A DNA stretch of 20,219 nucleotides from a virus: positions 1-20,219 of the IMG/VR virus record IMGVR_UViG_3300025127_000379; one strand, written 5' to 3'. The translations under genes were made by a program, and so were the position numbers. The stretch's first letter is position 1; each line of letters begins with the position of its first letter. The notes under the pieces were generated by a model. It made no database searches. It saw nothing but the letters and a program-made list of their open reading frames with translations, and had not been told where the DNA came from. Below are positions 10 to 16,601 of the stretch, in pieces.

Positions 10-3000
10 CTATTTTATTTTAGCAAAATCTATTATCTTTTCCAAGTGAATTGGATTAGATAAATCTAAAGTTTCTCCTTTTAAAAATATGTCCATTTTA
101 TTTAAGGCATCTTTTTTAGCTGTAGCAGGTAGTCTTCTAAATTTCTGTGCAGCTAATACATATCTACTCTTTTCAAACTCAATATCAAATTTAAGAGAGC
201 CTTTATCATCTGTCTCTATACCTGCTATAAATTTATCAATTTTAGATTTAAAAAATTTAAGTTGATTATCAATTTCTTTTCTTTGTGCATCTCTAATAAA
301 TGTTCTTTTTTTAATATTTGATTTTGCTTTATCCGATAGTTTATTATAGAACTTTTCCTGCATTGTATAAAAGTAACTACCCTCTTTCACATGGTCAACT
401 ATAGTAGTTAAATTTTCTCTTAAACTAGCAGCTTCAAAATTTTTAAATCCGGGTGAAATACTTCTAGTTACAATTTTAAAATCTCTGTAACCTAAGTCTT
501 CTAAATACTTACCAGCATCTGAATACTCTCTTTTTGTACTTAAACCTGAAAATACTTTTAGCATTGAGCCAACTCTATAATTACGATTTCCTGCCTGAAA
601 AACAGTTTCTCTATTTGGTACTTTTACAACATTACCATCAACATCAATAAATTCTTCATCTGTTCCGGGGCTAAATATATTTAAATAACCTCTTTTCTTA
701 GATGGTTGCATTACATATTTACCCACCTCTTGTGCAAAATTTATAATGTTTCCAGATGCTTTTATTTCAGGTTCTGTATTAAAATCTTTAAATTCATCTG
801 TTCTATATCCCATACCACGTTGAACTTCTATTATTTGATTCAATGGTGTTCCAAATCTTGAAATCCACTCACCCATAAAAGTTCCTAAAAATTTAGCACC
901 CTTTTCTGTACCCATTCCATCAGAAGAAAGTACAGCTTCTGCAAGGTCTTTAAATATAACTTCACCACTACCAACTCTTAAATTTGTTCCAAATATTGTT
1001 TCTGTTGCTTCTCTCCAACCTTGTTTCTCCATCCATTGTAATAGTTCACCATCATCATTTCTTTTTATGGCTTCAGCTATCCAAAGAGATTGTCGTAGCA
1101 AAGGAGACATTGGAGTGGTATCTGTTGTAGTACCATCATTATTTGCTAATAATTTATAATCAGCAGGAGCATCATCTTGATTTCTGTACATCATAGCTGC
1201 AGGTAGCACTACTGTCCAACCCAACATATTTCTAGATATTTGTTTTCTATCTTTAGCAGTAAATTTACCACCACCTAAAACTTTTTTCATAATTGGTAAT
1301 GGAGCACCTGCAGCGTAATTTCCTAGTAGTTCCATACTATTAAACATAAAACGTGGAAAAGGTGCTACAGTGGTTAAACCATTACGTGTTATAAAATTAG
1401 TGGTTTCTTTAAAAAAATAAAAATCAGGTTGTTTTGCATATGTAATATCCATTGCTTTGGTTACAGAATCAGTAAGAACTTCTTTAAAATCCTCTTTAGA
1501 AAGAAGGTCATCTATATTGCCTGTTTTTGCTAATTCCATTAAATCTATATCATATTTTCTTTTTACAAGTCTTTCAAGTTCTCCCATAAAAGTGGCTCTT
1601 CTTATCATATACTCTTGCCATCTGTTCACACTATTTAAAAAATCTACTCCACCTTCTGCACCCTTTAACACTTTTTCCATAGCTTTTGTTTTTAAGCCAG
1701 AACCTTTTAAATCTAATTCCATGTTACGTCTAACTTCACTTACTTGGTCAAACATTCTTTTATGTTCATCACCAAATCCGGGTGTTTTTAATATAAAATC
1801 TGTTAGTTCAGCAAACTCACCCCAATTTGAAGCATCATACATATATCTCATGCCTTTAAAAGAATCAGTCCAATTTGTAGGACTTATTATGGCTTTCATT
1901 CCTGATGCAATACCCTCATTCTCTAAATTATATAATGCCGTATCCATTACATTTTGTAATGCTTCTAGTGGTGCTCTTATACCTGCAGACTGTATATTTC
2001 TCATAGCTGTTGCTATTTGAGAAACAAGCAAACCCCTACTTATATTTTCTATTCTTAAACCTACTTTAGCTATATTTTTTTGTGTTTTATTTATATTATC
2101 TCTTTCTCCAAGAACCTCTTTTGACTTAAATCTTTTCGCTATAGCACTCATTTTCTGTAACACTTTACCTGCTGATGAAGCAGAGCCAACAGACATTGTT
2201 ACGTATTCTTCAAAACTTATACCATATTTATTTAATGTTTCAAGCAATTCATCCGTAGCTAACAAAGGCTTACCATCTGATGCTGTCTCTAAAGACAATT
2301 CCATTAAATTATCTATTACAGATTTGTTTTTTAAATCTACTTTGTTTGGAAATTTTTCAAACACATCACCTGCTGCTGCGACTAGAGCATCTAACTTTTC
2401 TGGTTTTAATATAGGAAATACTAAATTATTTTCTGCATCACGTATTAAAGAAGCTGTTTCATCTCCTCTTTCTCCTCTTCCTAAACTTTGCCTATAATCT
2501 AATACATCCATATTTAATTCATCGGCATTTCTGTATTTTGCAATATTAAGACCTGATTTTTTAGCCTTATCCATATCTAAAACTAAAAAACCTTTTTTAT
2601 CTTTTTTTGATATTAATAAACTATCGTCTATAACCTCATCTATATCAAATTGACTTCTTGCTCCTATAGTTTGTTCAAATTGTTTAATTAAAGTAGACCT
2701 TATTTCTCTATATTTCAAAGCCTGTTTTGCTGCTGTTTTAGCTTTCCCTGTTCTAACTATTTTTGTCGCTTCTTTTATAGCTTTTGGGTCATATTCTTGC
2801 TCTGTTATACCTCTTATAATTATTGTTTTTAAATCTTCATTACCTTTTGCATACTTTAATCCTACCATAAATCCGTCAACAGCTAATCCTAATATACCAC
2901 CTTCTACAGATTGTTTTAGTCTAGCCCTTATTTTGTCTTCTGCTTCTGCACTATCGTCTACTTTACTATCTAAAAAATCTAATACTTCTTTTACAATACC

Positions 3001-3777
3001 TATCTGCTCATCTCCGTTGTCATCTACATACGCAAACTCTTTTATAAAAGTAGCTAGGTTACCTTCTTTAGGGTCAAACAGAGCATCTGCTATAGCACCT
3101 TTAGTTACATATTTTCCAACTGCTGTTTTTCCACCCGGAGCAAGAACAAAAGAAGTTAAAAATTGAGAAGCATCTCTAACAAAAGAACCTAATATTGTTT
3201 TTGGCTCTTCTACACTAGGTAAGTTATATGGAACTTCTAAATCAACATTTTTTCCGAAATATATTTTGTCTCCTTTTTCTTGGTCATAGACTCTAAATAT
3301 TTCTCTGTACTTATTTTTTTGTTCATCAGATAATGTATTCCATTTACTTTTATCCATTTCGTAGCCTAGTTCTTTTCCTAATTCTTCTAAACCTGCTTCA
3401 GTAAATTCTGTAGTAGCCTGTATTAATTGCTGACCTGCTTCTCTACTACCACCTAGTATACCTCTATATAATACATCATCATAATAATATTTAAAACCAG
3501 ATATTGCTTTTAAAAATATGTTTTTTTGTGCTTTCAAATCATCTACATTAGCTTCTAATTTCATAGCATCTTGTTCTATTTGAATGTTACTATCATCTTC
3601 TAATTCTTGTGTGACTTTATTTGTGTTTTGATTTGATTGATGTTGCAATATGAGACTTTTTATTTTAGTTTTTGCTTCATCGCTAGTATCTGCATTAGAT
3701 GTTACACCATTAGACGATAAAGCATTTCTGTTGTCATTATAAACTGTGTGTTGTTCAATTAGTTCTTGCAGACCCAT
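10..3777 (-). CDS. Very large internal virion/ejection protein candidate (gp16-like position)
   Basis: A 1255-aa protein, complete (start MGLQELIEQHTVYNDNRNAL, stop TAG at 10-12). It is close in size to T7 gp16 (about 1300 aa) and is the last of the large virion genes here. It is mostly helical with several hydrophobic patches: about 289-308 (SVEGGILGLAVDGFMVGLKY), 582-603 (GLLVSQIATAMRNIQSAGI) and 852-863 (LGWTVVLPAAMM). APFPRFMFNSMELLGNYAAG (about 805-824) is a conserved-looking patch before the last one. I do not see a lysozyme or transglycosylase active-site pattern at the N-terminus, unlike T7 gp16, so wall cleavage may be missing or carried elsewhere. The start has GGAG some distance upstream and follows the 594-aa stop by two bases. 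The role is inferred from size and context. Confidence 0.62.
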   Translation of the reverse strand: MGLQELIEQHTVYNDNRNALSSNGVTSNADTSDEAKTKIKSLILQHQSNQNTNKVTQELEDDSNIQIEQDAMKLEANVDDLKAQKNIFLKAISGFKYYYDDVLYRGILGGSREAGQQLIQATTEFTEAGLEELGKELGYEMDKSKWNTLSDEQKNKYREIFRVYDQEKGDKIYFGKNVDLEVPYNLPSVEEPKTILGSFVRDASQFLTSFVLAPGGKTAVGKYVTKGAIADALFDPKEGNLATFIKEFAYVDDNGDEQIGIVKEVLDFLDSKVDDSAEAEDKIRARLKQSVEGGILGLAVDGFMVGLKYAKGNEDLKTIIIRGITEQEYDPKAIKEATKIVRTGKAKTAAKQALKYREIRSTLIKQFEQTIGARSQFDIDEVIDDSLLISKKDKKGFLVLDMDKAKKSGLNIAKYRNADELNMDVLDYRQSLGRGERGDETASLIRDAENNLVFPILKPEKLDALVAAAGDVFEKFPNKVDLKNKSVIDNLMELSLETASDGKPLLATDELLETLNKYGISFEEYVTMSVGSASSAGKVLQKMSAIAKRFKSKEVLGERDNINKTQKNIAKVGLRIENISRGLLVSQIATAMRNIQSAGIRAPLEALQNVMDTALYNLENEGIASGMKAIISPTNWTDSFKGMRYMYDASNWGEFAELTDFILKTPGFGDEHKRMFDQVSEVRRNMELDLKGSGLKTKAMEKVLKGAEGGVDFLNSVNRWQEYMIRRATFMGELERLVKRKYDIDLMELAKTGNIDDLLSKEDFKEVLTDSVTKAMDITYAKQPDFYFFKETTNFITRNGLTTVAPFPRFMFNSMELLGNYAAGAPLPIMKKVLGGGKFTAKDRKQISRNMLGWTVVLPAAMMYRNQDDAPADYKLLANNDGTTTDTTPMSPLLRQSLWIAEAIKRNDDGELLQWMEKQGWREATETIFGTNLRVGSGEVIFKDLAEAVLSSDGMGTEKGAKFLGTFMGEWISRFGTPLNQIIEVQRGMGYRTDEFKDFNTEPEIKASGNIINFAQEVGKYVMQPSKKRGYLNIFSPGTDEEFIDVDGNVVKVPNRETVFQAGNRNYRVGSMLKVFSGLSTKREYSDAGKYLEDLGYRDFKIVTRSISPGFKNFEAASLRENLTTIVDHVKEGSYFYTMQEKFYNKLSDKAKSNIKKRTFIRDAQRKEIDNQLKFFKSKIDKFIAGIETDDKGSLKFDIEFEKSRYVLAAQKFRRLPATAKKDALNKMDIFLKGETLDLSNPIHLEKIIDFAKIK

Positions 3778-3779
3778 TT

Positions 3780-5564
3780 TTAATAAGACTCCATTTGATT
3801 AGTCTGTAAATTTAAAGAGTAAATATTTTTACCTGTCCAAATTAATTGTATAAAAGCGTCATCTGTTAATGATGTTGGAATTTTTAATTCAAAAAAATCT
3901 CCCGGTTTAAGTTTACCTTCTTGTGATAGTTTTTTTATTGTCTGACCATCTAATATTTGTTCTTCAGATACTACTATCCCTGAATGTACATTTTCGTCTG
4001 TTCCTGCAGCTTTTAATGTTTTATTATTTTTAAATTTTAAAAAGTAATCCTTTAAGTTAGATTTAAAGTCTTCTAATTCTGCACCTACAGGTCCTAATAA
4101 AAATTTATCATCCTTATATGGATTTTTTACATCTGTATTAGCATATTTATCATTATTAATTAAACCATTTAAATATGGCAAAACATTACTATCCATTTTT
4201 GAAATGTAATCTCTGTAATTTTTAGCTTGATTTTCGTCAGCACCTGCAAATTTAAGAGCATATTGAGTTTCAAGACCTTCACTTGCTATAAAATATTCAC
4301 TAGATAATTTATTAGCTTTTGCTTTTAGCACAAAATTTTGTGCTCCAGTAATGCTTGTAAAGCCACCTTTAGATTTTGTAGGTTCTGCTTTGTCTTTATA
4401 TTTTTCTTGTGCCTTTTCTTTAGCTTCTTGTATTGCTTGTATTGATTTAAGTGCAGCAATCTGTGTTGCTTGTAATTCTTCTATTTTGTCTTTATTTGCT
4501 ACAGGGTCTAATCTGTTTAATTTATCTATTTCCATTGTTGTATTTGCTACAACTTCATTTAACGGAGCAACTTTACCTGCGTTTTTAATTATTGCACTTT
4601 TACCTAAATAAAAATCTAAATCATTTTCTAATTGTTTTACTTTTTCTGCATTTGGCTCATCTGCATTTCTAGCTTCATTTAGTTGTTGTACTGTATCACC
4701 TATTAGTTCATCTATTTTTTTAGATTCAGTAGGTTTTAATTTGTTATATCTGTCTAACTTATATTTTTTTTCATTAATTTTTTGTATTAATGCTTTATGT
4801 TCTTCACTATTTGCCTGATTAGATGCTCTCATTGCTTTTTCAGCTATGTTTAAATCTATTAGTTCTAAATTTGTTTTATCTATAGCTTCTGTAATACTTG
4901 CAAATTCTAGTGCTTTTTCTGGGTTAGCTAATGCTTCTTTCAAAGCATCTTGATTAACAGTAAGAGTACCTAATGTTGGTATAGCAACTTCTGTTTCATC
5001 TGCTTGAGAGTCTGCAAACTGAAAGTAATCTGGTAAATCTTCCTGACTTAAAGACATACCATATTGTGCTAAATATGCTTGTATAGGTGCTGAGTCATAT
5101 TTAACTGTATTACGCATAAATAAATCTAAAAACTCTTTGTTTGTTAAAGATGAATAATCTGTTGCTGTGTTTTCATTAGCACTTTTTTGAATATCATAAA
5201 AGTCTCCAAACTCTAGAGTTGAGTCAGACTTCTCACCAAAGGTAGATGTCCAAGTATTAAATCTATCCATTATGTCATTTACAGCAGACTCCCCACCTTG
5301 TGCTATTCTAAATCTTTCATCTACATCAAGACCTGTAGTTTCTAGTCTACTCATAAGTTTTTCTACAGCTGCTCTTTCTGCTTCTGCAGCTTCTTTTTTC
5401 TTATAATATAATTGGGTTGCAGTATCTATTGCCTTATCCATGATAAGGTCTGTTCTATTTCTCTCATATCTTTCTTCTTCACGTCTAGAAGCCCTTTTTT
5501 CTGCTTCATCTGCTTGAATTGCTTCACCTATTTTACCTAACGCTGCACCTACATAAAATACCAT
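3780..5564 (-). CDS. Helical internal virion protein candidate (gp15-like position)
   Basis: A 594-aa protein. After a short hydrophobic start (MVFYVGAALGKIGEAIQ) comes a strongly charged helix (AEKRASRREEERYERNRTDL, about 20-40), then more helix to about residue 95. The central part (about 225-400) is rich in long coiled-coil-like helices (e.g. KLKPTESKKIDELIGDTVQQ). The C-terminal 130 residues look globular with GKLKPGDFFELKIPTSL (about 549-565) and end in NQMESY. No catalytic motif is seen. T7 gp15 is likewise a large helical ejection protein encoded just before the larger gp16, and size order and position match here. AGGAG seven bases before ATG supports the start, which overlaps the 170-aa gene stop as TAATG. 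The assignment is by architecture and place only. Confidence 0.6.
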   Translation of the reverse strand: MVFYVGAALGKIGEAIQADEAEKRASRREEERYERNRTDLIMDKAIDTATQLYYKKKEAAEAERAAVEKLMSRLETTGLDVDERFRIAQGGESAVNDIMDRFNTWTSTFGEKSDSTLEFGDFYDIQKSANENTATDYSSLTNKEFLDLFMRNTVKYDSAPIQAYLAQYGMSLSQEDLPDYFQFADSQADETEVAIPTLGTLTVNQDALKEALANPEKALEFASITEAIDKTNLELIDLNIAEKAMRASNQANSEEHKALIQKINEKKYKLDRYNKLKPTESKKIDELIGDTVQQLNEARNADEPNAEKVKQLENDLDFYLGKSAIIKNAGKVAPLNEVVANTTMEIDKLNRLDPVANKDKIEELQATQIAALKSIQAIQEAKEKAQEKYKDKAEPTKSKGGFTSITGAQNFVLKAKANKLSSEYFIASEGLETQYALKFAGADENQAKNYRDYISKMDSNVLPYLNGLINNDKYANTDVKNPYKDDKFLLGPVGAELEDFKSNLKDYFLKFKNNKTLKAAGTDENVHSGIVVSEEQILDGQTIKKLSQEGKLKPGDFFELKIPTSLTDDAFIQLIWTGKNIYSLNLQTNQMESY

Positions 5565-6073
5565 TAACTTCTCCTAGCCATTAATCCTTGTGGTTCTTCC
5601 GTTTCTTCAACCACATCTTTCTTAATATTATCCTCTACCTTTTCTTTTTCAGACATCTTTTCTTTTAATCTTTTCTTAGCAAGGGCAATAGTGCTATCAT
5701 TAAAATTACTTTTCTTTAACCTATCATCTTCTGTGCCAACTCTGTATTCTATATCTGCTTCTTCTGCTAAGAATACCATCATCTCTACAAGTACAGGTAT
5801 AACTAATATACCTACATCTAATGTGTGATAGCCTTGCATAACACCACCTGTCTGCATAGCATTTGCTATAGTAGTTATGGGTATACCCATTTCTATGACA
5901 TCCATTAACTGTTCTGATATGTCAGAGTCTAGAAAACGTGGTATATAATACTCAAGTGTTTCCTCTACAGTATTAAACTGTGGTGGGTTTTGCCAAGGTC
6001 TATTACCTAATTCAAATGTTAGTGACTGACCTGCTATAGGACCATCAATATAAGGTGCATCAGGTTGTGCCAT
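5564..6073 (-). CDS. Conserved marine-phage virion-associated protein, unknown function
   Basis: A 169-aa protein starting MAQPDAPYIDGPIAGQSLTF. The ATG at 6073 is preferred over the GTG at 6076 directly before it, because related proteins as I recall begin MAQ. AAGG nine bases upstream of the ATG would serve either. The pattern YIDGPIAGQSLTFELGNRPW followed by VEEALEYY-like and MGIPITTIANAMQTGGVMQG segments is one I associate with a conserved marine phage protein of no known role. A hydrophobic helix, DVGILVIPVLVEMMVFLAEE (about 86-105 from the ATG), could be a membrane segment or a buried helix. The C-terminal 50 residues are highly charged (KKRLKEKMSEKEKVEDNIKK). It overlaps the 66-aa gene by 14 bases and the 594-aa gene by one base (TAATG), a tight cluster. 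Confidence 0.7.
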   Translation of the reverse strand: MAQPDAPYIDGPIAGQSLTFELGNRPWQNPPQFNTVEETLEYYIPRFLDSDISEQLMDVIEMGIPITTIANAMQTGGVMQGYHTLDVGILVIPVLVEMMVFLAEEADIEYRVGTEDDRLKKSNFNDSTIALAKKRLKEKMSEKEKVEDNIKKDVVEETEEPQGLMARRS

Positions 6074-6260
6074 CACGATATGCCTTTCTTCTATTTCTTA
6101 TTTGCTGTACATACTTTGCAACAGTTTGTCTTGCATCCATATTTTCTTTAGTCATCTGTGGCATATTGCTACGAGACAATAGACCTGATGTTTCTTTTTT
6201 AGGTTGCTGTTCTGTTGGCAACTTTAAATTTGTAACTGCTTTAAATGCTGCATCAAACAT
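6060..6260 (-). CDS. Small helical basic protein, unknown function
   Basis: A 66-aa protein from MFDAAFKAVTNLKLPTEQQP to NRRKAYRDGTT. No family is recognised. It has a short hydrophobic start, a polar Q/K linker and a C-terminal helix rich in Q and R (ARQTVAKYVQQIRNRRKAYR). AGGAG is placed seven bases before the ATG and overlaps the stop of the 877-aa gene, which supports translational coupling. The stop codon lies inside the first codons of the 170-aa gene in another frame. Its size and position between the ejection-type proteins suggest a minor virion or assembly protein. Confidence 0.62.
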   Translation of the reverse strand: MFDAAFKAVTNLKLPTEQQPKKETSGLLSRSNMPQMTKENMDARQTVAKYVQQIRNRRKAYRDGTT

Positions 6261-6268
6261 ATATTCTC

Positions 6269-8902
6269 CTATCCTAATCCAAATATATTACCAATAACGC
6301 TATCTGCTCCTGCAGTTAAGAAAGAACCAATAAGTGTTCCAAATCCTGCAGAAGAACTATAATCATTTTTCATTGACTGTATGTTAGCATCTGCGTCTGC
6401 TCTTAACTGTTCGATAGCTAAATTAATAACACGACTTCTTTCATTTTCAGCAGATGTCCAAGCCCATTCCATAGCATCACCATAATATTGCCACAAGTTA
6501 TTATATGCAGTATTCGATAATCCTAATAATGCTGTTGCATTTAATTCATTTGCACGATTGATTGCAGCAGTATCTGCTGTAGCTAACTGTCTTCTCCACT
6601 GTGCATTACTTTGGTCTATAACTAGTCTATTCTGTGCATTAAATTGGTCACGTTGATTATTTAATTCTGCATTAAATCTCTCTATTGTATTTACTTGACC
6701 TGCATTATACTGTGATTGTGCATTAGCTTGTGCTGCATTAAACTGTCCTACTTGTGATTGTAATTGTGAAAAGAATTGATTAACTTGATTTTGAGATGTT
6801 GCATTAAATTGTTGTGATGCGTTTATTGCAGCTTGGTCTGTAAATAAAGATTGCTGTCTTGCTTGAGCGTTAAATAATTCTGTTTGCTGTGCGTTACTTA
6901 AATTAGCCATATCCATTTGCATAAAATTTTGAGCATTCATTACTGCAGCTTGTTGTCTATTATTTAGATTGGATAAGTCCATATTTGCTAATGCAGATGC
7001 TTCTGCTATGACCATAGCTTGTTTATTAGATAAATTATTTAAATTAACTGTATTTGCTGCACGAGAGTTTTCTAGTGCTACCTGCTGTTCAGCAGTAAAG
7101 TTCATATTAGCTATATCACCTATACGAGCAGAGTTTTGAACTCTAGACTGAAATGTTTGGTCAAACTCCATACCCATAAATGTAGCACGTTGCTGTGCGG
7201 CTAACATTGCTCTTTGTTGTCTGTTACTTAAATTTTGTGCTTCAAACTGTGCTTGTGTCTGTGCATCTGCTGATGCTATAGGTAACGCTGACTCCATAGC
7301 AGCCTGTACAATCGCTTGTCCTGCGATACTAGATGCACCAACACCTCTTTGTATCATTGCATGATTTGCAGCTCTTATTGCACCTGCAGCCCACGCAGGT
7401 GTATTACCATCCTCAAACTGTTTCATCATTCCTTCTAATTGACCTTGCACAGTCGCTTGTTGTGAAGGTGTTGCTGTTGCAACCTGAACTTGCTCTACAA
7501 ATTGTGCTGCAGTTTGAGCATTGGCACTAGGAGATATAATCTCTCCTGCTTGTATTTGTCTTTGCACAGGATTTTGCATTTCTATTGCCGTACCCTGTGC
7601 AGCATTTAAGTTTGAAATAGAAGATGCATTAGCAGTTTGTGCTGATACAATAGGAACAGAAACATTTTGCTGTGCGTCAGCCTGTAACATTTTTAAATTT
7701 TGTTGTGTTGTTACAGGGTCTATTTGCATAGCAGGTGCAACCATAGGTGTTTGTGTGAGTGCTGTAGTAGCTTGTGCTATGGGTGTTTGTATAGAACCTG
7801 TTACCTGACCCTCTGATGGGTCAATCATCTGTCCCGGCTCTTGTAGCGTTCCTTGAGGTACTATCGTAGCACCTGTGGGTAATGCAGGTGACTGTGCTTG
7901 TTTAGCCATTAAATCCTGTATTTGTTTTCCGGGTGTAAAAGATTGTTGTGGTATAAACTGTTGGGGTAAAGGTTGTGCTGTGCCTGTAGTAGGTGTAGTA
8001 GGATTAGTAGGTGTAGTAGGATTAGTAGGTGTAGTAGGTGTAGTAGGTGTAGTAGGTGCAGGTTCAATTACATCTGGTATCATAGGTGATACACTATAAT
8101 TAGCACCAAGTTGGTCTAAATATTGTCTAAAAGCAGCACCCTCTGCCATGCTATTAAAACCAAATTTTCTACCATCAGCTAGTGTAATAGTATCAGACAT
8201 TGCCATGTCTCTTATAGTATCATCTGGTAAAGCAAACCTAGACATTTGAAATCCTTTTAGTGGGTCTTGTAATTGTTGTTGTCTTATATAAGTATTTAAT
8301 GCATCACCCTGACCTTGTAAAAATAAATTAGCAGGAGCATCTCTATAGTATGTTTGTAAAGGACCTGCACCTTGCATATTAGATAGATATTTATTTTTTT
8401 GAATTATAGGGTCTAGTTGGTCTGCTCTAAATTGTGCTTGTTGTCTTAAATTACTATAACTTCTTTTAAAAGGACTAAATGTTCCAGACCTTTTGTAGGC
8501 ATCGGAATAGTATTGTTGTAACTTTCTTAAATCTTCTAAATTAGTATTATCTGTAAAATATGGAACACCTGACCTATCACCTGATAAACCTACAACCTCA
8601 CTACCAAATTGCATATCACCTGTATACGCAGGTCTAGCCATGCCACCCTGTTGAAATGTTTGTTTAGGTGGCTCTACAAATCCACCAATAGTATCTTGTG
8701 GTTGTTGTTGTGTTTGTGTAGGTAAGCGTACAACTCCTGCATCAGCCATCTCAATAGCAGAATCTTCTAGCTGTTTCATTCTTTGTTTAAGAGAAACATT
8801 ACTATCTAGGTATTGTCGAAAGCCACTCATGTCTCCTGAGTAGCCCATACCTCTAGCTATACGTTCCATAGCCTGTGGCTTAAATGCCTTAAACTTTGCC
8901 AT
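6269..8902 (-). CDS. Large Q/N-rich repeat virion protein, probable internal/ejection protein
   Basis: An 877-aa protein starting MAKFKAFKPQAMERIARGMG. The N-terminal part (1-275) is a mixed charged domain. Residues about 283-306 are a TTP/TNP repeat, a likely flexible hinge. Residues 310-480 are P/Q/T-rich and probably disordered. Residues 480-550 include GNTPAWAAGAIRAANHAMIQ. Residues 554-770 hold degenerate repeats (NLSNRQQxAMxxAQ, then QFNAxxxNQxxQFNAQ), predicted as long amphipathic helices. The extreme C-terminus (about 851-877), AGFGTLIGSFLTAGADSVIG then NIFGLG, is a glycine-rich hydrophobic segment that could enter a membrane. No enzyme motif is visible. Being between the membrane protein and two other large helical proteins, it is likely part of an ejectosome. 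I recall similar Q/N repeat proteins in marine phages as structural but unassigned. Confidence 0.62.
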   Translation of the reverse strand: MAKFKAFKPQAMERIARGMGYSGDMSGFRQYLDSNVSLKQRMKQLEDSAIEMADAGVVRLPTQTQQQPQDTIGGFVEPPKQTFQQGGMARPAYTGDMQFGSEVVGLSGDRSGVPYFTDNTNLEDLRKLQQYYSDAYKRSGTFSPFKRSYSNLRQQAQFRADQLDPIIQKNKYLSNMQGAGPLQTYYRDAPANLFLQGQGDALNTYIRQQQLQDPLKGFQMSRFALPDDTIRDMAMSDTITLADGRKFGFNSMAEGAAFRQYLDQLGANYSVSPMIPDVIEPAPTTPTTPTTPTNPTTPTNPTTPTTGTAQPLPQQFIPQQSFTPGKQIQDLMAKQAQSPALPTGATIVPQGTLQEPGQMIDPSEGQVTGSIQTPIAQATTALTQTPMVAPAMQIDPVTTQQNLKMLQADAQQNVSVPIVSAQTANASSISNLNAAQGTAIEMQNPVQRQIQAGEIISPSANAQTAAQFVEQVQVATATPSQQATVQGQLEGMMKQFEDGNTPAWAAGAIRAANHAMIQRGVGASSIAGQAIVQAAMESALPIASADAQTQAQFEAQNLSNRQQRAMLAAQQRATFMGMEFDQTFQSRVQNSARIGDIANMNFTAEQQVALENSRAANTVNLNNLSNKQAMVIAEASALANMDLSNLNNRQQAAVMNAQNFMQMDMANLSNAQQTELFNAQARQQSLFTDQAAINASQQFNATSQNQVNQFFSQLQSQVGQFNAAQANAQSQYNAGQVNTIERFNAELNNQRDQFNAQNRLVIDQSNAQWRRQLATADTAAINRANELNATALLGLSNTAYNNLWQYYGDAMEWAWTSAENERSRVINLAIEQLRADADANIQSMKNDYSSSAGFGTLIGSFLTAGADSVIGNIFGLG
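6593..7243 (-). repeat. Degenerate Q/N-rich helical repeats
   Basis: Codes for residues 554-770 of the 877-aa protein. Recurring cores are NLSNRQQ, NLSNKQA, NLNNRQQ, NLSNAQQ, then QQFNA, GQFNA, ERFNA and DQFNAQ. Spacing is roughly 21-24 residues in the first half and 11-22 in the second. Confidence 0.75.
7985..8062 (-). repeat. TTP/TNP hinge repeat (9-base units)
   Basis: Tandem copies of a 9-base unit (plus strand GTAGTAGGT or the variant GTAGGATTA) encode the TTP and TNP run at about residues 281-306 of the 877-aa protein. Because the unit is three codons, slippage would change hinge length without a frameshift. Confidence 0.8.
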
Positions 8903-8904
8903 AA

Positions 8905-9135
8905 TTATTTACCTATTAATATTTTATCTAATTTATCTTCTAGTCTTTGTAACGCATCCATTACTGTGTGCATATCTTCTTTTACATCATCACGTTTAGC
9001 ATATTCCTCTCGTGTCTTATTGAGGAGTATATCCAAGCGTTTTACTTCCATAAACATACCACGAAACACCCATATAGCAGGTGCTATGACGAGTGTTAGT
9101 AGTCCATTCCAAAATAGTATTGGGTTTACTTCCAT
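8905..9135 (-). CDS. Single-span membrane protein with coiled coil, holin candidate
   Basis: A 76-aa protein. Residues 5-24 (PILFWNGLLTLVIAPAIWVF) form a clear hydrophobic membrane segment. The rest (about 30-76) is charged helix and coiled coil (KRLDILLNKTREEYAKRDD, then LQRLEDKLDKILIGK). The predicted form is a short N-terminal tail, one transmembrane helix and a soluble helical domain. T7 places its small holin (gp17.5) right after the fibre gene, so a pinholin- or holin-like role is a fair inference. No endolysin gene is in the window. Other options are a spanin-like anchor or a virion membrane protein. The start overlaps the preceding gene as TAATG, and the stop lies two bases before the 877-aa gene. 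Confidence 0.66.
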   Translation of the reverse strand: MEVNPILFWNGLLTLVIAPAIWVFRGMFMEVKRLDILLNKTREEYAKRDDVKEDMHTVMDALQRLEDKLDKILIGK

Positions 9136-9425
9136 TACTCCATTTTACCTGTGTCAGGATTAAATGTCTTACCCACTAACTTATATTCATTTGACCACGC
9201 AGTAGCATTATCTTTCATAGCTTCATATGCTTCTTTAACATAATCATCATCAGATTTACTGCTATCTATAGTCAACCATACAGTTTCTATATATGAGTTA
9301 TTATCAATATCTGTATCTTTAAATTTTAAAGTTACATTTTGTTTTAACGTACCATCAGGTACTATATCTTTATTTTCATCTATTTTTTCTTGAACAAATC
9401 TTTCTACTGTAACGCTTAATGTCAT
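9135..9425 (-). CDS. Small acidic protein of unknown function
   Basis: A 96-aa protein starting MTLSVTVERFVQEKIDENKD and ending NPDTGKME. I do not recognise a family. It has a short helix with KIDENKD, then strands around VTLKFKDTDIDNNSYIETVW, then a helix SDDDYVKEAYEAMKDNATAW. There is no signal peptide, membrane segment or cysteine. The start is well supported by AGGAG seven bases before ATG. It lies nine bases after the third fibre gene, and its stop overlaps the start of the membrane protein gene by one base (TAATG), so the two are probably translated together. A fibre-assembly or lysis-related role is possible from position alone. Confidence 0.62.
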   Translation of the reverse strand: MTLSVTVERFVQEKIDENKDIVPDGTLKQNVTLKFKDTDIDNNSYIETVWLTIDSSKSDDDYVKEAYEAMKDNATAWSNEYKLVGKTFNPDTGKME

Positions 9426-9434
9426 TTTATTCTC

Positions 9435-10850
9435 CTAACTTAATACACCAAATGATGCTATTTTAAATCCATATGTTGCTCCAAATCTATTTCTAAAAGT
9501 TACATTATTGGAACTAGCTGCTGATATAAGACAGAACTTTCCATCTGTATCAGAGTTTGTAAAATTAGAATTACCACTAATTAAAGTAGGGGTATTTTGC
9601 CCTTCAACTCTATATACAGCTGTTAAGGCATTACTCGTTGAAGTTACAACAACTATACCTTGAAAACTATTAGCAACAGCAATCGCAGTTGCATCATCTG
9701 CTAAACTAACTTCTGTCATTGACCTAAACATAAGTTGGTCATTTACTGATTCTATATTTACAACATGTGAATTGTCTGTTTGATTATAAATAGAAAAAGT
9801 AGTATGTGAATAAACACCCGGACCTATTCTCCAAATATTACCACTATTTGCTGTATTATCAAATCTTATATAGTTTCCATCTCCTGCTTTACCTTCTACT
9901 TGAAAAAAACCTTTTACATGAAGATGGTCGTCAGGTGTTACACCTATACCTACATTTCCACTAGAATCAATTCTCATTCTTTCACTAGAACCATTAGTAT
10001 GAAAGGTCATATAGTTATCTGTTTGACCACTATAATCAGTTCTGTATGCTATCTTGCCGTCTATATTTCCATCATCATCTTTAAAACCTATTGAACCTTC
10101 GCCACCATCACCAGTTGCAGCTAAAAACAATTCAGGATTACCTTCACTGATAGTTAAATTGTCACTAAAAGTTGATGTACCACTAACATCTAAAGTACCA
10201 TTAAGGTCAACAGCCGTAGCGTTTAACTCAATTTCGTCTGTTGCATTTATATCTAACACTGTAGCACTTGGTGCATTAATAGACTGACTTGCATCATTAA
10301 ACTGTAAAGCCATTGTACTATTAAGTAATAAACCTGTGTCTGCAACGTGTGTTAAAGTAACATCTGAATCAGCACCAAACTTTACTACAGCAGCATCTGA
10401 CTTTAATAATATATCATCACCAACAACCACATCTTTTGCTACACCTAAACCACCATCTGTCTGTATAGACCCTGTTGTAGTAGATGTAGAGTCAGTAGTG
10501 TCATCAACAGTAACTGTGCCACTATGTGTAACATTACCACTAAACGTACCACCACTTGTAGCACTGACCATATCGGCAGTTGTAAAGATGTCATAGACTA
10601 ATACAGTTACTTCATCATTTGCTACAGTCGCTGTTAGTCCTGCTATGGTGTTAGCTGTATTTGTGTTATAGTCTGTTCCTGCTTTGAGCAACACACCATT
10701 GAGAAACACATCCATGTACACACTATCTGAAAAGGTTAGTGTAGCACCACTAACATCATTGCCACTTATTGATGTAGTACCTGCATTTGGAGTAAATACA
10801 AATCTTTGTCTTACACCAAAGCCATCTGTTGTTCTACCTATATATGCCAT
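9435..10850 (-). CDS. Third tail fibre, no S74 domain
   Basis: A 471-aa protein starting MAYIGRTTDGFGVRQRFVFT. The N-terminal domain (about 1-95), with VYMDVFLNGVLLKAGTDYNT and VTVLVYDIFTTADM, is a small beta domain I have seen at the start of marine phage fibres, probably for attachment. Residues 113-146 (TVDDTTDSTSTTTGSIQTDG, then GLGVAKDVVVGDDI) are related in form to a segment of the 511-aa fibre. A shaft with SSERMRIDSSGNVGIGVTPD (about 288-307) follows. The C-terminal region (about 380-471) ends in FRNRFGATYGFKIASFGVLS and looks like a distinct folded tip, so it must trimerise without the S74 chaperone. The start is joined to the 511-aa gene by the same GCG-TAA-ATGG junction found upstream of that gene. 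Confidence 0.8.
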   Translation of the reverse strand: MAYIGRTTDGFGVRQRFVFTPNAGTTSISGNDVSGATLTFSDSVYMDVFLNGVLLKAGTDYNTNTANTIAGLTATVANDEVTVLVYDIFTTADMVSATSGGTFSGNVTHSGTVTVDDTTDSTSTTTGSIQTDGGLGVAKDVVVGDDILLKSDAAVVKFGADSDVTLTHVADTGLLLNSTMALQFNDASQSINAPSATVLDINATDEIELNATAVDLNGTLDVSGTSTFSDNLTISEGNPELFLAATGDGGEGSIGFKDDDGNIDGKIAYRTDYSGQTDNYMTFHTNGSSERMRIDSSGNVGIGVTPDDHLHVKGFFQVEGKAGDGNYIRFDNTANSGNIWRIGPGVYSHTTFSIYNQTDNSHVVNIESVNDQLMFRSMTEVSLADDATAIAVANSFQGIVVVTSTSNALTAVYRVEGQNTPTLISGNSNFTNSDTDGKFCLISAASSNNVTFRNRFGATYGFKIASFGVLS

Positions 10851-12386
10851 TTACGCTTTCTCCAATGTTGCTACTCTAGCTTCTAATTCTTGTATTGTTT
10901 TAACTAACAATGGTACGAGTTTACTTTGGTCTATACCTTGATAAACATTTTCTGTTTTTGTTTTTGTCCAAGTTTGTCCTTCATCTTTTTTTGTTTTTGC
11001 TTCTAAAACATTTTCTTGAACTATATTACCCTCTTCATTTTTTATAGTTCCTAAATCTTGTGTTTCATCTTTTACTCCAACTATAGCTTCTGGAACAATG
11101 TCAGACACTTCATGTGCTAAAAATCCATCTACAGTTGTGTCTTCATCTATTTTAAAATTAAATCTTGCAGGTTTTAATTGTTTTAATCTTGATGTTGCAT
11201 CCCAATCATAGGTAACATTTTCTTTAAGTCTATAATCTGATGATGTATGATAAGTTGTAGCTGTGGTGCTTGTTGAAATTCTACCTACAAGACTCCCACC
11301 ATTTAAAAAAGAAAGCATAGTTGCGTTGGAGTCACTTCCCCTTCTAATTACTAAATTACCTGCATCCTCAAAATAAGCTGAATTATCAACAGAGGTATCA
11401 GCACCACCTATATGTAAATATCCACTAGAAGTAATTCTAATTTTTTCATCGTTAGTTAAATGCACTGCACCAGAATCTGCACCATCTACAGCAAATATTA
11501 AATTACCTGAACCATAACTACCAGTGTCAATATGTGCGATTGCTGCTTTTTTTCTAGCACCACTATCATTACTAAATATAAGAGAAGCGTTATTGCCTGT
11601 TGAATTTTGCCTATTGTTTATAAATAAACCTTCAGCAGTCGTTGAGTTATCTGATGTAAATATGTGACTTATAAATCCACTTGCATCAATATTTAATCTC
11701 TCAGCACTAGCAGTTTTAATTTTTAAAAGGTCTGCACCATGACCATACTCAATAGCACCATGCGTTACATTTCCAGTGGCATCACTAAAATATATTGAAC
11801 CATAACCATCTGTTGCACTAACTAAAGTTATTCCTGATGACCCAGATGTTTCTGACCTATCAATAACAAGTCCATTGCCATAAGAATTATAATCAGCAGG
11901 ATTTGAAACACCTATACCAACTAAACTTGTGCTACCTTCAAGAAAAAAGGCATGACCTTGTGAATCTGATTCAAGTCTAAAATCTACATCAGCACTACTC
12001 TCGTTAAATACAAAGTTACCACCATCAAAACTTATATCACCTGCAGCACTAAGGTCTGTACCAACATACAATTTTTTAGCTATACTAACACCACCTTCTG
12101 TTCTTAACGCACCTGTATCTCCAGTAGCATCACTTGCATCTGTAGTATCTGTTACATCAACCACACCACTAGCTGTAATAGTCGTTGCAGTCAAAGCCTG
12201 TGCAGCTATTGTACTTCCTGATTGAGCAGTAAAGGTGTTTGCAGTAAATTGAAAGTCATCAGCACCTGCTATTTTAATATCAATTTGGTCATCAGTATCT
12301 GCTGATATAGATGTGTCAGCATCTGCATCAAGAATAAACTCTTGACCATTTAAGTCTGCACTTGCTCTATCTCTTGCTCTTCCCAT
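10851..12386 (-). CDS. Second tail fibre/spike with C-terminal S74 self-cleaving chaperone
   Basis: A 511-aa protein starting MGRARDRASADLNGQEF. Residues 18-61 are the same DADADT module as in the 551-aa fibre. Then comes a segment at about 75-112 (VDVTDTTDASDATGDTGALR, then GGVSIAKKLYVGTDL) that the 551-aa fibre lacks but the 471-aa fibre shares in form. DISFDGGNFVFNES (117-130) matches the 551-aa fibre again. Residues 165-375 are a different variable region. The S74 domain starts at S383 in SSDYRLKEN with K388 five residues on, followed by GFLAHEVSDIVPEAI and a short coiled coil (IQELEARVATLEK). The predicted released chaperone is 129 residues. The start ATG directly follows the previous TAA, with GGAGG about eight bases before it. 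Confidence 0.86.
   Translation of the reverse strand: MGRARDRASADLNGQEFILDADADTSISADTDDQIDIKIAGADDFQFTANTFTAQSGSTIAAQALTATTITASGVVDVTDTTDASDATGDTGALRTEGGVSIAKKLYVGTDLSAAGDISFDGGNFVFNESSADVDFRLESDSQGHAFFLEGSTSLVGIGVSNPADYNSYGNGLVIDRSETSGSSGITLVSATDGYGSIYFSDATGNVTHGAIEYGHGADLLKIKTASAERLNIDASGFISHIFTSDNSTTAEGLFINNRQNSTGNNASLIFSNDSGARKKAAIAHIDTGSYGSGNLIFAVDGADSGAVHLTNDEKIRITSSGYLHIGGADTSVDNSAYFEDAGNLVIRRGSDSNATMLSFLNGGSLVGRISTSTTATTYHTSSDYRLKENVTYDWDATSRLKQLKPARFNFKIDEDTTVDGFLAHEVSDIVPEAIVGVKDETQDLGTIKNEEGNIVQENVLEAKTKKDEGQTWTKTKTENVYQGIDQSKLVPLLVKTIQELEARVATLEKA
12204..12335 (-). repeat. DADADT fibre module, copy 3
   Basis: Codes for residues 18-61 of the 511-aa fibre. It is almost the same protein as copy 2, and the match continues into AAQALTATTITA, but the codons differ widely. 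Confidence 0.85.
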
Positions 12387-14042
12387 TTACGCTTCCTCCA
12401 ATGTCTTTACTTTGGCTTCTAATGTTTCTATTCGTTCCATTGCTTCCTGTAATGCTTTAACTGCTTTCATATACAATACTGAATATCCAATAGATTTAAC
12501 TTTTGATTTTACTTCTTTAACATCACCAATTTGTTTACCCTCTGGAATGTCATCATTATCTTTATCAGTTTGAGTGTATAAAGTTCCAAACTCTGCACTC
12601 ATTTTAATATCTTCAGGTGTAGGATTTGATTCTCTTATTATATTTGGACAAACAGTTTCTACTTCTTGAGCAACAACACCTATTTGCGACCATGCTTTGT
12701 CACCATATTGTGCAACATCATCTTTTCTTTTAAAGTTTCTAACTTTGATATTTTTTATATCATTCCATTGAGAGTTTGAATCTACAATATCTTGTTTAAT
12801 TCTTTCATCAGATAATGCACCATAAGAGTTATCGTGATTTCTTACATCACCATCATTAAAAACTAAAAATCTAGCAGCAGTGCCATCAAAAAAGTAATAA
12901 GCATATTGGTCTTGGTCATCTGGAGTTCCATCATAAGCTACAGATATCCCTGCAGGATAACTTCCTGTACTCTTATTATGAATAACTGCTGAAGAAATAT
13001 TATCGGCTGTTGAGTATGCTTCAAATGCTCTTGTAGTATACGCAGGTTCTGTTCTGCCTGAAACTGAATAATTGAATATTGTGCAACCACCACCAAAAAT
13101 ACTAACGTGTTTTGATGTAGAATTACTAGTAGCAGAAACTTGGTTACTTGTAGTGTTATTAGGTGATACATAAAAATCTAAAGTTTCAGTATGACCATAC
13201 CCCTTTTTAGAACAAGCTATTTTTGACCTTATACCTTGACCAGTAGAATCATCATCTGAACTAAAAATAATTTGACCAACACTAGCAGCACCATTATAAC
13301 CATTCTCAAAATTAATATCATTAAAAAGATGTAGTACAGCACCTTGGTCTGTATTAGAAGCAGAAACAGTAGCAAATTGTCTTGTAATTCTTAATTCTGC
13401 ATCTGTAGTGCCATTAACATCTAATTTTGCAAGTGGGGTTGCAAGTCCAATTCCTACTCTATCTGCACTACCATCAGCCAATAGTAAATTGGCATCAGAG
13501 TCACCTTCAACTCTAAAATCTTTTGATGCACCACTTTCATTAAATACAAAGTCACCACCATTAAAACTGATGTCACCTGTAGCAGTTATTGTAGTTGCAG
13601 TTAAAGCTTGGGCGGCAATAGTGCTACCTGACTGTGCTGTAAAAGTATTAGCAGTAAATTGAAAATCATCTGCTCCTGCTATTTTTATGTCTATTTGGTC
13701 ATCTGTGTCAGCAGTAATAGAAGTATCTGCATCTGCATCTAGTATGATTTCATTTCCATTAACGTCAATGCCACCATCTTTAAGAAGAACACTATCTATT
13801 GTAACACCTGAACCTGATGTTGTTTCTGATATTGTGTTAGTTGCAATAGTGCTACCTGATTGAGCAGTAAAAGTATTAGCAGTAAATTGAAAATCGTCTG
13901 CTCCACCAATCTTAATATCTATTTGGTCATCAGTATCGGCTGTGATACTTGTATCTGCATCAGCATCAAGTGTCATTTCCTTGCCGTTTTGAGCAACAGT
14001 ATTTAATAATAATGGTGAAGGATTATTTCCAAAATAAGGCAT
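12387..14042 (-). CDS. Tail fibre/spike with C-terminal S74 self-cleaving chaperone
   Basis: A 551-aa protein starting MPYFGNNPSPLLLNTVAQNG. Residues 24-67 and 100-143 are two near-identical 44-residue modules (LDADADTSITADTDDQIDIK, then DDFQFTANTFTAQSGSTIA), followed by a shaft with DRVGIGLATPLAKLDVNG (about 194-211). Residues 230-405 are a variable beta-rich region, probably the receptor-facing part. From residue 411 a peptidase S74 (intramolecular chaperone) domain begins with LSDERIKQDI. In that family the Ser (here S411) and the Lys five residues on (K416) form the cleavage dyad, and cutting before the Ser releases the chaperone after trimer folding. Later come IGVVAQEVE and a C-terminal coiled coil (LQEAMERIETLEAKVKTLEE). 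The predicted mature fibre is about 410 residues. The start overlaps the previous stop as TAATG. Confidence 0.86.
   Translation of the reverse strand: MPYFGNNPSPLLLNTVAQNGKEMTLDADADTSITADTDDQIDIKIGGADDFQFTANTFTAQSGSTIATNTISETTSGSGVTIDSVLLKDGGIDVNGNEIILDADADTSITADTDDQIDIKIAGADDFQFTANTFTAQSGSTIAAQALTATTITATGDISFNGGDFVFNESGASKDFRVEGDSDANLLLADGSADRVGIGLATPLAKLDVNGTTDAELRITRQFATVSASNTDQGAVLHLFNDINFENGYNGAASVGQIIFSSDDDSTGQGIRSKIACSKKGYGHTETLDFYVSPNNTTSNQVSATSNSTSKHVSIFGGGCTIFNYSVSGRTEPAYTTRAFEAYSTADNISSAVIHNKSTGSYPAGISVAYDGTPDDQDQYAYYFFDGTAARFLVFNDGDVRNHDNSYGALSDERIKQDIVDSNSQWNDIKNIKVRNFKRKDDVAQYGDKAWSQIGVVAQEVETVCPNIIRESNPTPEDIKMSAEFGTLYTQTDKDNDDIPEGKQIGDVKEVKSKVKSIGYSVLYMKAVKALQEAMERIETLEAKVKTLEEA
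13614..13745 (-). repeat. DADADT fibre module, copy 2
   Basis: Codes for residues 100-143 of the 551-aa fibre. In protein it differs from copy 3 (in the 511-aa fibre) at one residue of 44 (T versus S), yet by hand about 28 of 132 bases differ, nearly all at synonymous third positions. Confidence 0.85.
13842..13973 (-). repeat. DADADT fibre module, copy 1
   Basis: Codes for residues 24-67 of the 551-aa fibre (DADADTSITADTDDQIDIKI, then GGADDFQFTANTFTAQSG). It differs from the other copies by one or two residues. The half encoding the FTANTFTAQSGS end shares codons with copy 2, while the DADADT half does not. Confidence 0.85.
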
Positions 14043-14389
14043 TATGTTATCTCCATAATTGAAAGTGCAACATCTGTAGCACCACTCCCTGTAACACTAA
14101 TAGTGTCTGTTGTTTCTAGTACAACTTTGTTACCTGATAATAATTCTAATGATGACCCTGCAGGAATAGGTGCATCAGTAATTAACTCTACTGCTTGGTT
14201 AGCTTCATCATTAGCACCTGCTCTAGAACTTGTATCTGATGAAAGTGTCACTGTAGATGTTATTTGAGAAGTTGTTGTGTTGCCAAGTATTAATCCTAAC
14301 ACAATAGCTGTAACACCTGAACCTGCTGTATAAATAACATCTGCTGATGTAACTCCTGCTTTTGTTACAACTTTAAATGTATTTGCCAT
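14042..14389 (-). CDS. Conserved small phage protein of the fibre cassette, unknown function
   Basis: A 115-aa protein from MANTFKVVTKAGVTSADVIY to ALSIMEIT. I recognise the general type: a beta-rich small protein found beside tail fibre genes in many marine phages, with a central PIPAGSSLELLSG and a C-terminal SIMEIT. Its role is not known to me. Attachment adaptor, small fibre-associated protein or baseplate decoration are possible. It is the first gene behind the consensus promoter, with AGGA about seven bases before the ATG, so it is probably strongly expressed. Its stop TAA overlaps the ATG of the next fibre gene by one base, which suggests translational coupling to the fibres. No membrane segment or signal peptide is seen. 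Confidence 0.7.
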   Translation of the reverse strand: MANTFKVVTKAGVTSADVIYTAGSGVTAIVLGLILGNTTTSQITSTVTLSSDTSSRAGANDEANQAVELITDAPIPAGSSLELLSGNKVVLETTDTISVTGSGATDVALSIMEIT

Positions 14390-14406
14390 TTTATTTTCCT
14401 TTACTA

Positions 14407-14435
14407 ATTATACTTTATTTTTGCTTATTTGTCAA
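14407..14435 (-). promoter_or_regulatory. Consensus sigma70 promoter upstream of the 115-aa gene and fibre cassette
   Basis: On the minus strand TTGACA (14430-14435) and TATAAT (14407-14412) are separated by exactly 17 bases (14413-14429), matching the full bacterial housekeeping consensus. It sits in the 49-base gap after the 720-aa fibre stop. A start seven bases beyond the -10 box would be A at 14400, giving an 11-base leader, AGGAAAATAAA, before ATG at 14389. The leader would then begin with the Shine-Dalgarno-like AGGA. In an A+T-rich genome isolated -10 boxes are common, but an exact -35 at exact spacing in an intergenic gap is unlikely by chance. Confidence 0.85.
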
Positions 14436-14438
14436 GCA

Positions 14439-16601
14439 TTATCCTAATGCTATAGCTAATGCTGTAGCTTCATCTGCAGCAGTAGCAGTTGTGGCAACTG
14501 TACCTGCACTGCTTGGTAATGTTAAAGTAATGTCTGATGTAGATGAAGGACCTATCAAAGTTACTTTATTTGTACCATTATCACTATCTTCAAAGAACTC
14601 TAAAAATCCTGCTGAAGTAGAACCATTCTTTAACTGTATACCTGCATTTGCTATTGGTGTTGTTAATGTAGGTGTAGTTAAAGTTTTATTTGTTAATGTA
14701 TCTGTTGTTGTTCTGCCTACTATTGTATCTGTTGTTGCAGGTAGAGTTAATGTAGTATTACCTGAAAAAGCAGAGTGAGCAGGTGCTTGTAATTGTGCAT
14801 AGTGAGCATTAGAAGACTCACAGTAAAATCTAATATATGATTGAGAACCTGAGTTCTTTAAATCTATAACACCTGATTCAACACCCACATTACCATCAAG
14901 TACAACTTGCCCTGAACCTTTTGGTGTTATCTTTAAACTAACATTTGTATCGTCACCTGTTGCAGATATTTCAGGTGAATTACCTGTTGCAGCATTTGTT
15001 ACATCAATCTGATTAACAGCAGAAGATGTAGTTTGGAATATAATTTGTTCATTACCATTTTCATCTGCAATAAAATGTGCATCGTCAATAAGTATGTTAT
15101 GTGAATTAGTATCAAGATTACCACCTAACTGTGGAGTTGTATCTTGTACGATTGTATTGATAGCATCTGAAGAAGCTAGTCCTGCAGTAAAATTAGCACG
15201 AGTAATCTTTCTAATTGCACTAGCACTTGTATCATAAATCAAAAGAACATCGTTACTAGCAACAGAAGTTTCAGCAGTCTGTCCTGTAATAATATTATCA
15301 TTAAGCATTGCAGTTTCAACTGCATCATTTGCTATTGTTACAGCACCTGTATTACTGATTGTTACGTCACCTGATACTGCTACAGGATTAAAGTTAGTAC
15401 CATCTGCAACCATGATATGACCACTAGTGTTTGTACCCATAGTTAGGTCATCACCTGATATAGTTAAATCACCTGCGATTGTAACGTCAGCACCACTACC
15501 TGTAAGCATAGTGGTAGAACCTGATTTAATTACTAAATCACCACTAGAGTTTGTAAAAGATGCGTATTGTGTGCCATCATCTTTAAGAACTACATCTGCA
15601 CCCCCTGCATCTAAAGTAATATCTGCTACTGCATCCACTGTAAGATTGTTTGCAGAGATAGTCATATCTGTGCCATCTCCTTCAATCTTTTCACTGTCAC
15701 CACCAAATACAACACCAACATTGTTTGGTATATGTACATCAGAAGTTGCTGTTAAGTTTATTTTAGCACCTGATGTAATAGTTAAATCTGTGCTATCACC
15801 TTCAATTTTTTCACCACTACCAAATGTAATACCTACATCTGCAGGAACTACAATATCTGCTGTAGCAGTTAAGTTAATATTATTACCTGTTATAGTAAGG
15901 TCTGTACCATCACCTTCTATCTTCTCTCCATCATCACCAAATGTCAATCCTATATCGGCAGGTATATTAATATCACCACCTGACCCAACAGTTATACTTA
16001 AATCAGTACCATCTGATTCTATTTTTTCTGCTGTAGCAAATGTTAGCCCTACACCTGATGGAATATTTACATCTGCAACTGCTGTAAGATTTATGTTGTT
16101 ACCTGAAACAGTTAAATCAGTTCCGTCACCTTCTATTTTTTCTGCATCATCACCAAAAGTTAAACCAACATTAGCAGGTATATTAATATCTGTTGTTGCT
16201 GTTAAATTAATGTCATTTCCTGATGCTATTGTTAAATCTGTAGCATCACCACTTATATGCTCTCCACCTTCATCATTTAAATATAATTTTTTAGTGCTAT
16301 CTATTACTATGTCATCTGAAAATTTAAAGTGGTCTTCATCTTCCATCCAAGTAAGAACACCATCTGATGTTTCACCATCAAAAGTTACAGCTATATCTGT
16401 ACCTGCTGTACCATCTCCTATTGTTATAGATGTGCCTAATAATTTAGTTATAGGACCACCTTCAGCACTTGTACCATCATGTGTGTGTCCTGTGCTTGAT
16501 GCAAATGCAGCTAATAACTGATTAAATTCATTATTAGTATCGGATGCCTGTATAACATCGCCATCAGTATATGTAGACTGTCTTGTATACGTTGCTCCCA
16601 T
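14439..16601 (-). CDS. Tail fibre protein with tandem beta repeats
   Basis: A 720-aa protein starting MGATYTRQSTYTDGDVIQAS. The N-terminal region has NEFNQLLAAFASSTGHTHDG (about 24-43), a head- or tail-attachment pattern common in marine phage fibres. Its HTH residues could bind metal. Residues 105-338 hold six tandem copies of a 33-42-residue unit (xTFGDDxEKIEGDGTDLT, then NNINLTATADxxIPxxVG), which probably forms a trimeric beta shaft. Residues 340-580 are further S/T/G/D-rich fibre shaft. The C-terminal part has NTTLTLPATTDTIVGR, then TDTLTNKTLTTPTLTTPI, and ends in an A/T-rich helix (EATALAIALG). No S74 chaperone domain is visible. The start abuts the nozzle stop (TAAATG). Fibre identity is clear, but receptor and attachment point are not. 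Confidence 0.8.
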   Translation of the reverse strand: MGATYTRQSTYTDGDVIQASDTNNEFNQLLAAFASSTGHTHDGTSAEGGPITKLLGTSITIGDGTAGTDIAVTFDGETSDGVLTWMEDEDHFKFSDDIVIDSTKKLYLNDEGGEHISGDATDLTIASGNDINLTATTDINIPANVGLTFGDDAEKIEGDGTDLTVSGNNINLTAVADVNIPSGVGLTFATAEKIESDGTDLSITVGSGGDINIPADIGLTFGDDGEKIEGDGTDLTITGNNINLTATADIVVPADVGITFGSGEKIEGDSTDLTITSGAKINLTATSDVHIPNNVGVVFGGDSEKIEGDGTDMTISANNLTVDAVADITLDAGGADVVLKDDGTQYASFTNSSGDLVIKSGSTTMLTGSGADVTIAGDLTISGDDLTMGTNTSGHIMVADGTNFNPVAVSGDVTISNTGAVTIANDAVETAMLNDNIITGQTAETSVASNDVLLIYDTSASAIRKITRANFTAGLASSDAINTIVQDTTPQLGGNLDTNSHNILIDDAHFIADENGNEQIIFQTTSSAVNQIDVTNAATGNSPEISATGDDTNVSLKITPKGSGQVVLDGNVGVESGVIDLKNSGSQSYIRFYCESSNAHYAQLQAPAHSAFSGNTTLTLPATTDTIVGRTTTDTLTNKTLTTPTLTTPIANAGIQLKNGSTSAGFLEFFEDSDNGTNKVTLIGPSSTSDITLTLPSSAGTVATTATAADEATALAIALG
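15588..16289 (-). repeat. Six tandem fibre-shaft repeats
   Basis: Codes for residues 105-338 of the 720-aa fibre. Units begin near residues 105, 147, 186, 219, 258 and 297. Core residues are EKIEGDGTDLT and NLTATADxxIP. Copy 3 is short (33 residues) and lacks the NNINLTATAD segment. Copies 1 and 6 are diverged at the edges. At the DNA level the EKIEGDGTDL core is encoded with different synonymous codons in each copy. Confidence 0.85.

Follow-up and report, generated by a model that had tools for sequence, protein, structure and literature searches.

An optional, very probably functional sigma70-type promoter before the fibre cassette of HMO-2011-type marine podoviruses

In phage T7, the internal class III promoters phi13 and phi17 precede the ejection and tail-fibre genes. 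Natural promoters seldom score 12/12 against the sigma70 consensus, and a perfect consensus requires no activator. The phages closest to the one described here are of the HMO-2011 type, a very abundant marine group whose DNA polymerase has a partial DnaJ domain (PMC6918029). A paper on this group (PMC9038755) makes no mention of promoters, and our literature search returned no earlier report of a promoter at the junction in question.

We analysed the whole stretch of 20,219 nucleotides of IMG/VR virus record IMGVR_UViG_3300025127_000379, called the window below, which is a 20-kb fragment with structural genes only. Its relevant features are:

14439..16601, minus strand: 720-aa fibre-like gene upstream of the promoter, ending ..TALAIALG and stop
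14402..14438, minus strand: 37-nt block, present in the window and missing from the relative L001 as a clean indel
14430..14435, minus strand: -35 box TTGACA, 6/6, with little or no variation in 111 homologous gaps
14413..14429, minus strand: spacer AATAAGCAAAAATAAAG, 17 nt, of the same length in 108 of the 111 homologues and divergent in sequence
14407..14412, minus strand: -10 box TATAAT, 6/6, assigned from the sequence and the homologous gaps
14390..14400, minus strand: predicted leader AGGAAAATAAA, 11 nt, with the start placed 7 nt past the -10 box
14042..14389, minus strand: 115-aa small virion protein gene (phrog_1276 / phrog_26609), 'virion structural protein' in relatives
9435..14042, minus strand: fibre cassette of three fibre-type genes, downstream of the promoter
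12387-14042, minus strand: first of these, Peptidase_S74 / phrog_9942 tail fiber
10851-12386 and 9435-10850, minus strand: second and third fibre-type genes
10..9425, minus strand: remaining co-oriented genes
10-3777, minus strand: 1255-aa ejection-type protein, similar to HMO-2011 gp22

Read on the minus strand from 14435 to 14407, the site consists of TTGACA, AATAAGCAAAAATAAAG and TATAAT; TAGTAA, AGGAAAATAAA and the ATG at 14389 follow. From the stop of the 720-aa gene to the ATG of the 115-aa gene there are 49 nt, and the site is within this gap. The earlier note had described the two hexamers as exactly 17 bases apart and between structural genes, and this holds. Its span of 14400-14435 has to be narrowed, as the boxes occupy 14407-14435 and 14400-14406 is merely the stretch downstream. 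When both strands were scanned for TTGACA-N15..19-TATAAT, this was the single match in the window, whereas shuffles that preserved dinucleotides gave an expectation of 0.08 matches per window. Out of 79 promoter-like matches in the window, it is also the sole one with 12/12. The hexamers of sigma70-type promoters stand 16-18 nt apart, and the site has TTGACA, the 17-nt spacer, TATAAT and the right start-codon distance in common with sigma70 (RpoD) consensus promoters. Together with the comparisons described below, these features make it very probable that the site works as a sigma70-type promoter.

The predicted transcript would begin with a Shine-Dalgarno-like AGGA (14400-14397, minus strand) at its extreme 5' end. 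The 11-base leader at 14400-14390 with AGGA at the transcript start, as proposed in the earlier note, was thereby confirmed. Across the family of the 115-aa gene, predicted leaders measure 5-20 nt, bar one misassigned start, and the distance from -10 box to ATG is 17 nt in the window, 26 nt in HMO-2011 and 11-12 nt in HTVC103P and HTVC104P. The leader is predicted to be just 5-6 nt long in HTVC103P (39761-39733), HTVC104P (40033-40005) and the L426-L453 group. In these phages the Shine-Dalgarno AGGA is upstream of the predicted start, and probably the mRNA born at the promoter would be leaderless, while the read-through mRNA would carry the Shine-Dalgarno element. In L315, L316, L318, L371 and their relatives, the stop TGA of the fibre-like gene falls within the -35 box (GGT TGA CA), and the promoter overlaps the coding end of that gene.

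The 580-aa tail protein of the window is 60% identical to HMO-2011 gp44, and the 1255-aa protein is 37% identical over 67% to HMO-2011 gp22. Because of these similarities and the co-linear gene order, we assign the window to an HMO-2011-type podovirus with a homologous structural module. The 720-aa gene is by position the counterpart of HMO-2011 gp43 'tail fiber protein' and of HTVC115P gp66, and its C-terminal ending is also found in relatives. The three fibre-type genes have repeats in common (..ILDADADTSISADTDDQIDIKI..ADDFQFTANTFTAQSGSTIA..), which suggests a duplication within the cassette.

Puniceispirillum phage HMO-2011 and the Pelagibacter phages HTVC103P and HTVC104P carry an identical TTGACA-17-TATAAT before the homologous structural gene, with the same gene order around the junction as in the window. 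These isolates came to light when the search was widened with divergent family members. The promoter is absent from the isolates checked first, namely HTVC010P, 034P, 106P, 115P, 026P, S-TIM5, S-SRM01, Melnitz, Deep1, Sf-CH5 and S-T4; HTVC115P is related to the HMO-2011 type and in this respect differs from the window. CRP-345 was set aside as a candidate, as its 49-nt gap at the corresponding place contains no promoter and the following gene is unlike the family. HMO-2011 has just two perfect sites with spacer 17. One (53396-53368) precedes gp71 at the head of a 36-kb leftward operon that ends at 16927. The other (31754-31726) precedes gp42, the gp41-gp28 fibre run and the gp25-gp22 proteins, that is, it lies 21.6 kb into the operon at the fibre/ejection cassette. 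Such a placement suits the separate boost of fibre and ejection genes that the earlier note had proposed.

Among the 80 IMG/VR loci nearest to the 115-aa protein, our first sample, most had a fused gene pair, with 4-30 nt between the genes, and lacked the promoter, and L068, L077 and L078 had a matching promoter at the equivalent position. A blind IMG/VR pattern scan with CTTGACAAA-N15-TATAATTA returned 119 loci, and in 16 of them the site stood 16-26 nt upstream of the ATG of a homologue of the 115-aa gene. We then enlarged the sample by further family queries to 292 distinct upstream regions of such homologues. A site of at least 11/12 was present in 111 of the 292 (102 of them perfect), a prevalence that is biased because promoter-positive loci supplied three of the four family queries; in the window-centred set, the promoter was found in 5 of 75 loci, the window counted, and 70 were without it.

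The family falls into two states. Promoter-plus gaps are mostly 43-62 nt long, and the other members have a short gap and no site. The promoter occupies 106 of the 107 family gaps of at least 35 nt, and family members with fused genes have none. As a control we took other genes with gaps of at least 35 nt in the same loci, and about 2 of 312 had a site of at least 11/12; this figure is corrected for 19 of the 22 listed sites, which were family members dropped as duplicates, and the corrected control also leaves one such site at a contig edge. Over the 111 gaps, the columns of the boxes hold about 2 bits and those of the spacer mostly 0.1-1. The perfect match persists across family proteins down to about 30-40% identity. 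Almost invariant boxes around divergent spacers of nearly constant length argue for selection on the promoter. The earlier note had called for an alignment of relatives; among those that keep the site, 102 of 111 have it in perfect form and nearly all have the 17-nt spacer.

In two more loci of the blind scan, L129 (~10713) and L183 (~196; gene-strand coordinates), an extra gene of about 150 aa (MANSATV.. / MADDATV..) stands between the promoter and the family gene. In both loci the promoter still follows the fibre-like gene directly; what it marks is thus the beginning of the cassette, and it belongs to the junction, not to one gene. Five long IMG/VR contigs of the promoter-plus state had one or two perfect sites, among them always the one at the family gene. 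G029 (L454-L456) and G033 (L463-L464) have further strong sites with a perfect TTGACA and the -10 box TATAAC, for example at 391+, 41247- and 53546- in G029 and at 37097+ and 25526- in G033; possibly these phages have in them a second class of promoter. The promoter-minus phage L080 has, at the contig start (~110-140, plus strand), TTGACA-16-TATAAT before a tail-tube-like gene (MSTTYLTLVNNVLNELNE..), which indicates that such sites can stand at other structural junctions too.

The relative L001 is 96% identical to the window on both flanks and its 115-aa protein is identical, but the promoter is missing; it is also absent from L002. The earlier note had named close relatives that keep the flanking genes and lose the boxes as evidence against its proposal, and L001 is literally such a case. 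Some close relatives with conserved flanks have thus not kept the site, which lowers the claim of it being essential but not of it being a promoter. The pair L189/L377 differs by a clean 47-nt indel with TATAA repeats at its edges and the leader retained. Here a loss is favoured, since the empty site joins the TATAA repeats and the leader of the plus state is kept. For the window and L001, gain and loss look the same in the sequence comparison. The promoter state changed at least 33 times on a protein tree of 150 tips (122 columns, many unresolved forks), and 16 of the changes are forced by well-supported branches. Plus/minus pairs keep their homology on both sides of the junction. Judged by these comparisons, the promoter is optional and not essential: it is absent from relatives with near-identical flanks and from most of the window-centred loci, and its state has changed many times. 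It is a block that is readily lost and perhaps regained.

A search with PF00940 (RNA_pol) gave no match in 44 IMG/VR records or in HMO-2011, HTVC103P, HTVC104P, HTVC115P, HTVC010P, CRP-9 and CRP-13. None of the 14 built-in control genomes matched; KT997847 and HTVC019P served as positive controls and matched clearly. Since no T7-type RNA polymerase was found in the HMO-2011-type group, host polymerase would have to transcribe the late genes. The window phage presumably lacks such an enzyme too, judging from the relatives of this 20-kb fragment. The two phages that do bear the polymerase have the family gene and no promoter, which fits a dependence of the promoter-plus phages on host polymerase, though two such phages make the association weak. 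The earlier note had set the site against T7-type phages and proposed reliance on host polymerase. The second point is supported, but the phage is of a podovirus type in which no T7-type RNA polymerase was found, and we rejected the idea of a T7-type phage with an exceptional promoter.

The first gene behind the promoter is not a fibre gene. The 115-aa protein was predicted by AlphaFold2 as a 9-strand beta sandwich (pLDDT 95). Among the structural neighbours of the model are tail parts, pentameric nucleoplasmin cores and virion proteins of the decoration or turret kind. At Z 8.6-9.6 it matched nucleoplasmin-type cores, the HFTV1 turret, the KHP40 trimeric cement protein and Ena endospore fibres, with no single clear relative among them. 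BFVD relatives are named virion structural proteins. The Pfam search gave no family above the cut-off and the sequence search against solved structures no match. The model points to a small oligomeric beta sandwich, decoration-like, and nothing narrower. A dedicated strong promoter would suit such a virion protein if it is multi-copy. The aim at the fibre cassette stated in the earlier note is therefore right for the direction, as the site faces the fibre/ejection cassette, but not for this first gene.

Our preferred reading, to which we give a probability of roughly 0.77, is that of a genuine host-sigma70 promoter, an optional start point inside a long late operon that would serve its fibre/ejection part. 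The host RNA polymerase holoenzyme would bind the perfect -35/-10 pair and start some 11 nt ahead of the ATG at 14389. The 115-aa gene would be transcribed first, and the transcript would run on into the fibre genes and internal virion proteins, because no gap or terminator precedes the genes that come next (the following gene overlaps the end of the 115-aa gene in the window, and the gap is 1-21 nt in other promoter-plus loci). This output would add to read-through from the operon head. The promoter presumably fires in infection, be it late, early or throughout, and a raised dosage of fibres and small protein would be the benefit. Tentatively, and with more doubt than trust, we suggest that the 37-47-nt block might serve as an evolutionary on/off dial for expression of the fibre cassette, repeatedly lost and regained. 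Loss, for example by deletion between TATAA repeats, and later regain would switch between read-through only and a separate boost of fibres and small virion protein, with the proteins unaltered.

A chance match in an A+T-rich intergenic gap has next to no probability. Such a match turned up somewhere in the window in 8 of 100 shuffles, and several close relatives lack the site. However, the perfect match recurs in 102 of the 292 homologous gaps, across proteins as distant as stated above, and in three cultured phages, and the data from homologous gaps already refute this explanation. The site could also be read by a phage-encoded factor, its own polymerase or a sigma-like protein, whose signal resembles the sigma70 consensus. 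Our search for phage regulators was non-exhaustive, which leaves some room for it. But no T7-type polymerase was found in these phages, and the site matches the host consensus exactly, canonical 17-nt distance included, although the phages infect different hosts (SAR116, SAR11); we rate this reading as highly improbable.

We consider it unlikely that the promoter is autonomous in the manner of a moron, firing from the first minutes or from a prophage, outside late control, so that the small virion protein and fibres would be expressed, for example, to alter the cell surface. A perfect host consensus would work without a phage factor, the promoter precedes one small gene and is variably present in close relatives, and temperate members are possible among HMO-2011-type relatives (PMC6918029). 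But promoter, gene and terminator do not form one unit. The gene is present in both states, no terminator or terminator-sized gap lies behind it, and its product is annotated as a virion structural protein. Very unlikely, in our view, is that the block serves as a common stretch through which fibre modules recombine, with promoter activity secondary. It does stand exactly at the border of the variable cassette, tracks this border when a gene is inserted, and has a highly mosaic state. Recombination would, however, need contiguous identity, whereas only the hexamers and their distance are kept and the spacer diverges; homology on both sides in the plus/minus pairs means that they were not created by exchange at the junction.

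Near-identical phages that differ in whether they have a strong internal promoter provide a natural experiment on the need for restarts in long late operons. The question can be tested, as there are cultured phages with the promoter (HMO-2011, HTVC103P, HTVC104P) and without it (HTVC115P). In metagenomic contigs, the promoter sequence also shows where the host-range (fibre) cassette begins.

When compared to sigma70 promoters in general, this one junction stands out in that a perfect 12/12 match is the rule. Like phi13 and phi17 of T7, the window site is an extra promoter in the structural region that would restart fibre/ejection transcription, but those are read by a phage single-subunit RNA polymerase, while the window site has the host sigma70 consensus. 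With lambdoid morons it has in common a sigma70 promoter between structural genes, variably present among relatives. In a moron, however, promoter, gene and terminator are inserted jointly, whereas here the promoter block alone varies and the gene stays.
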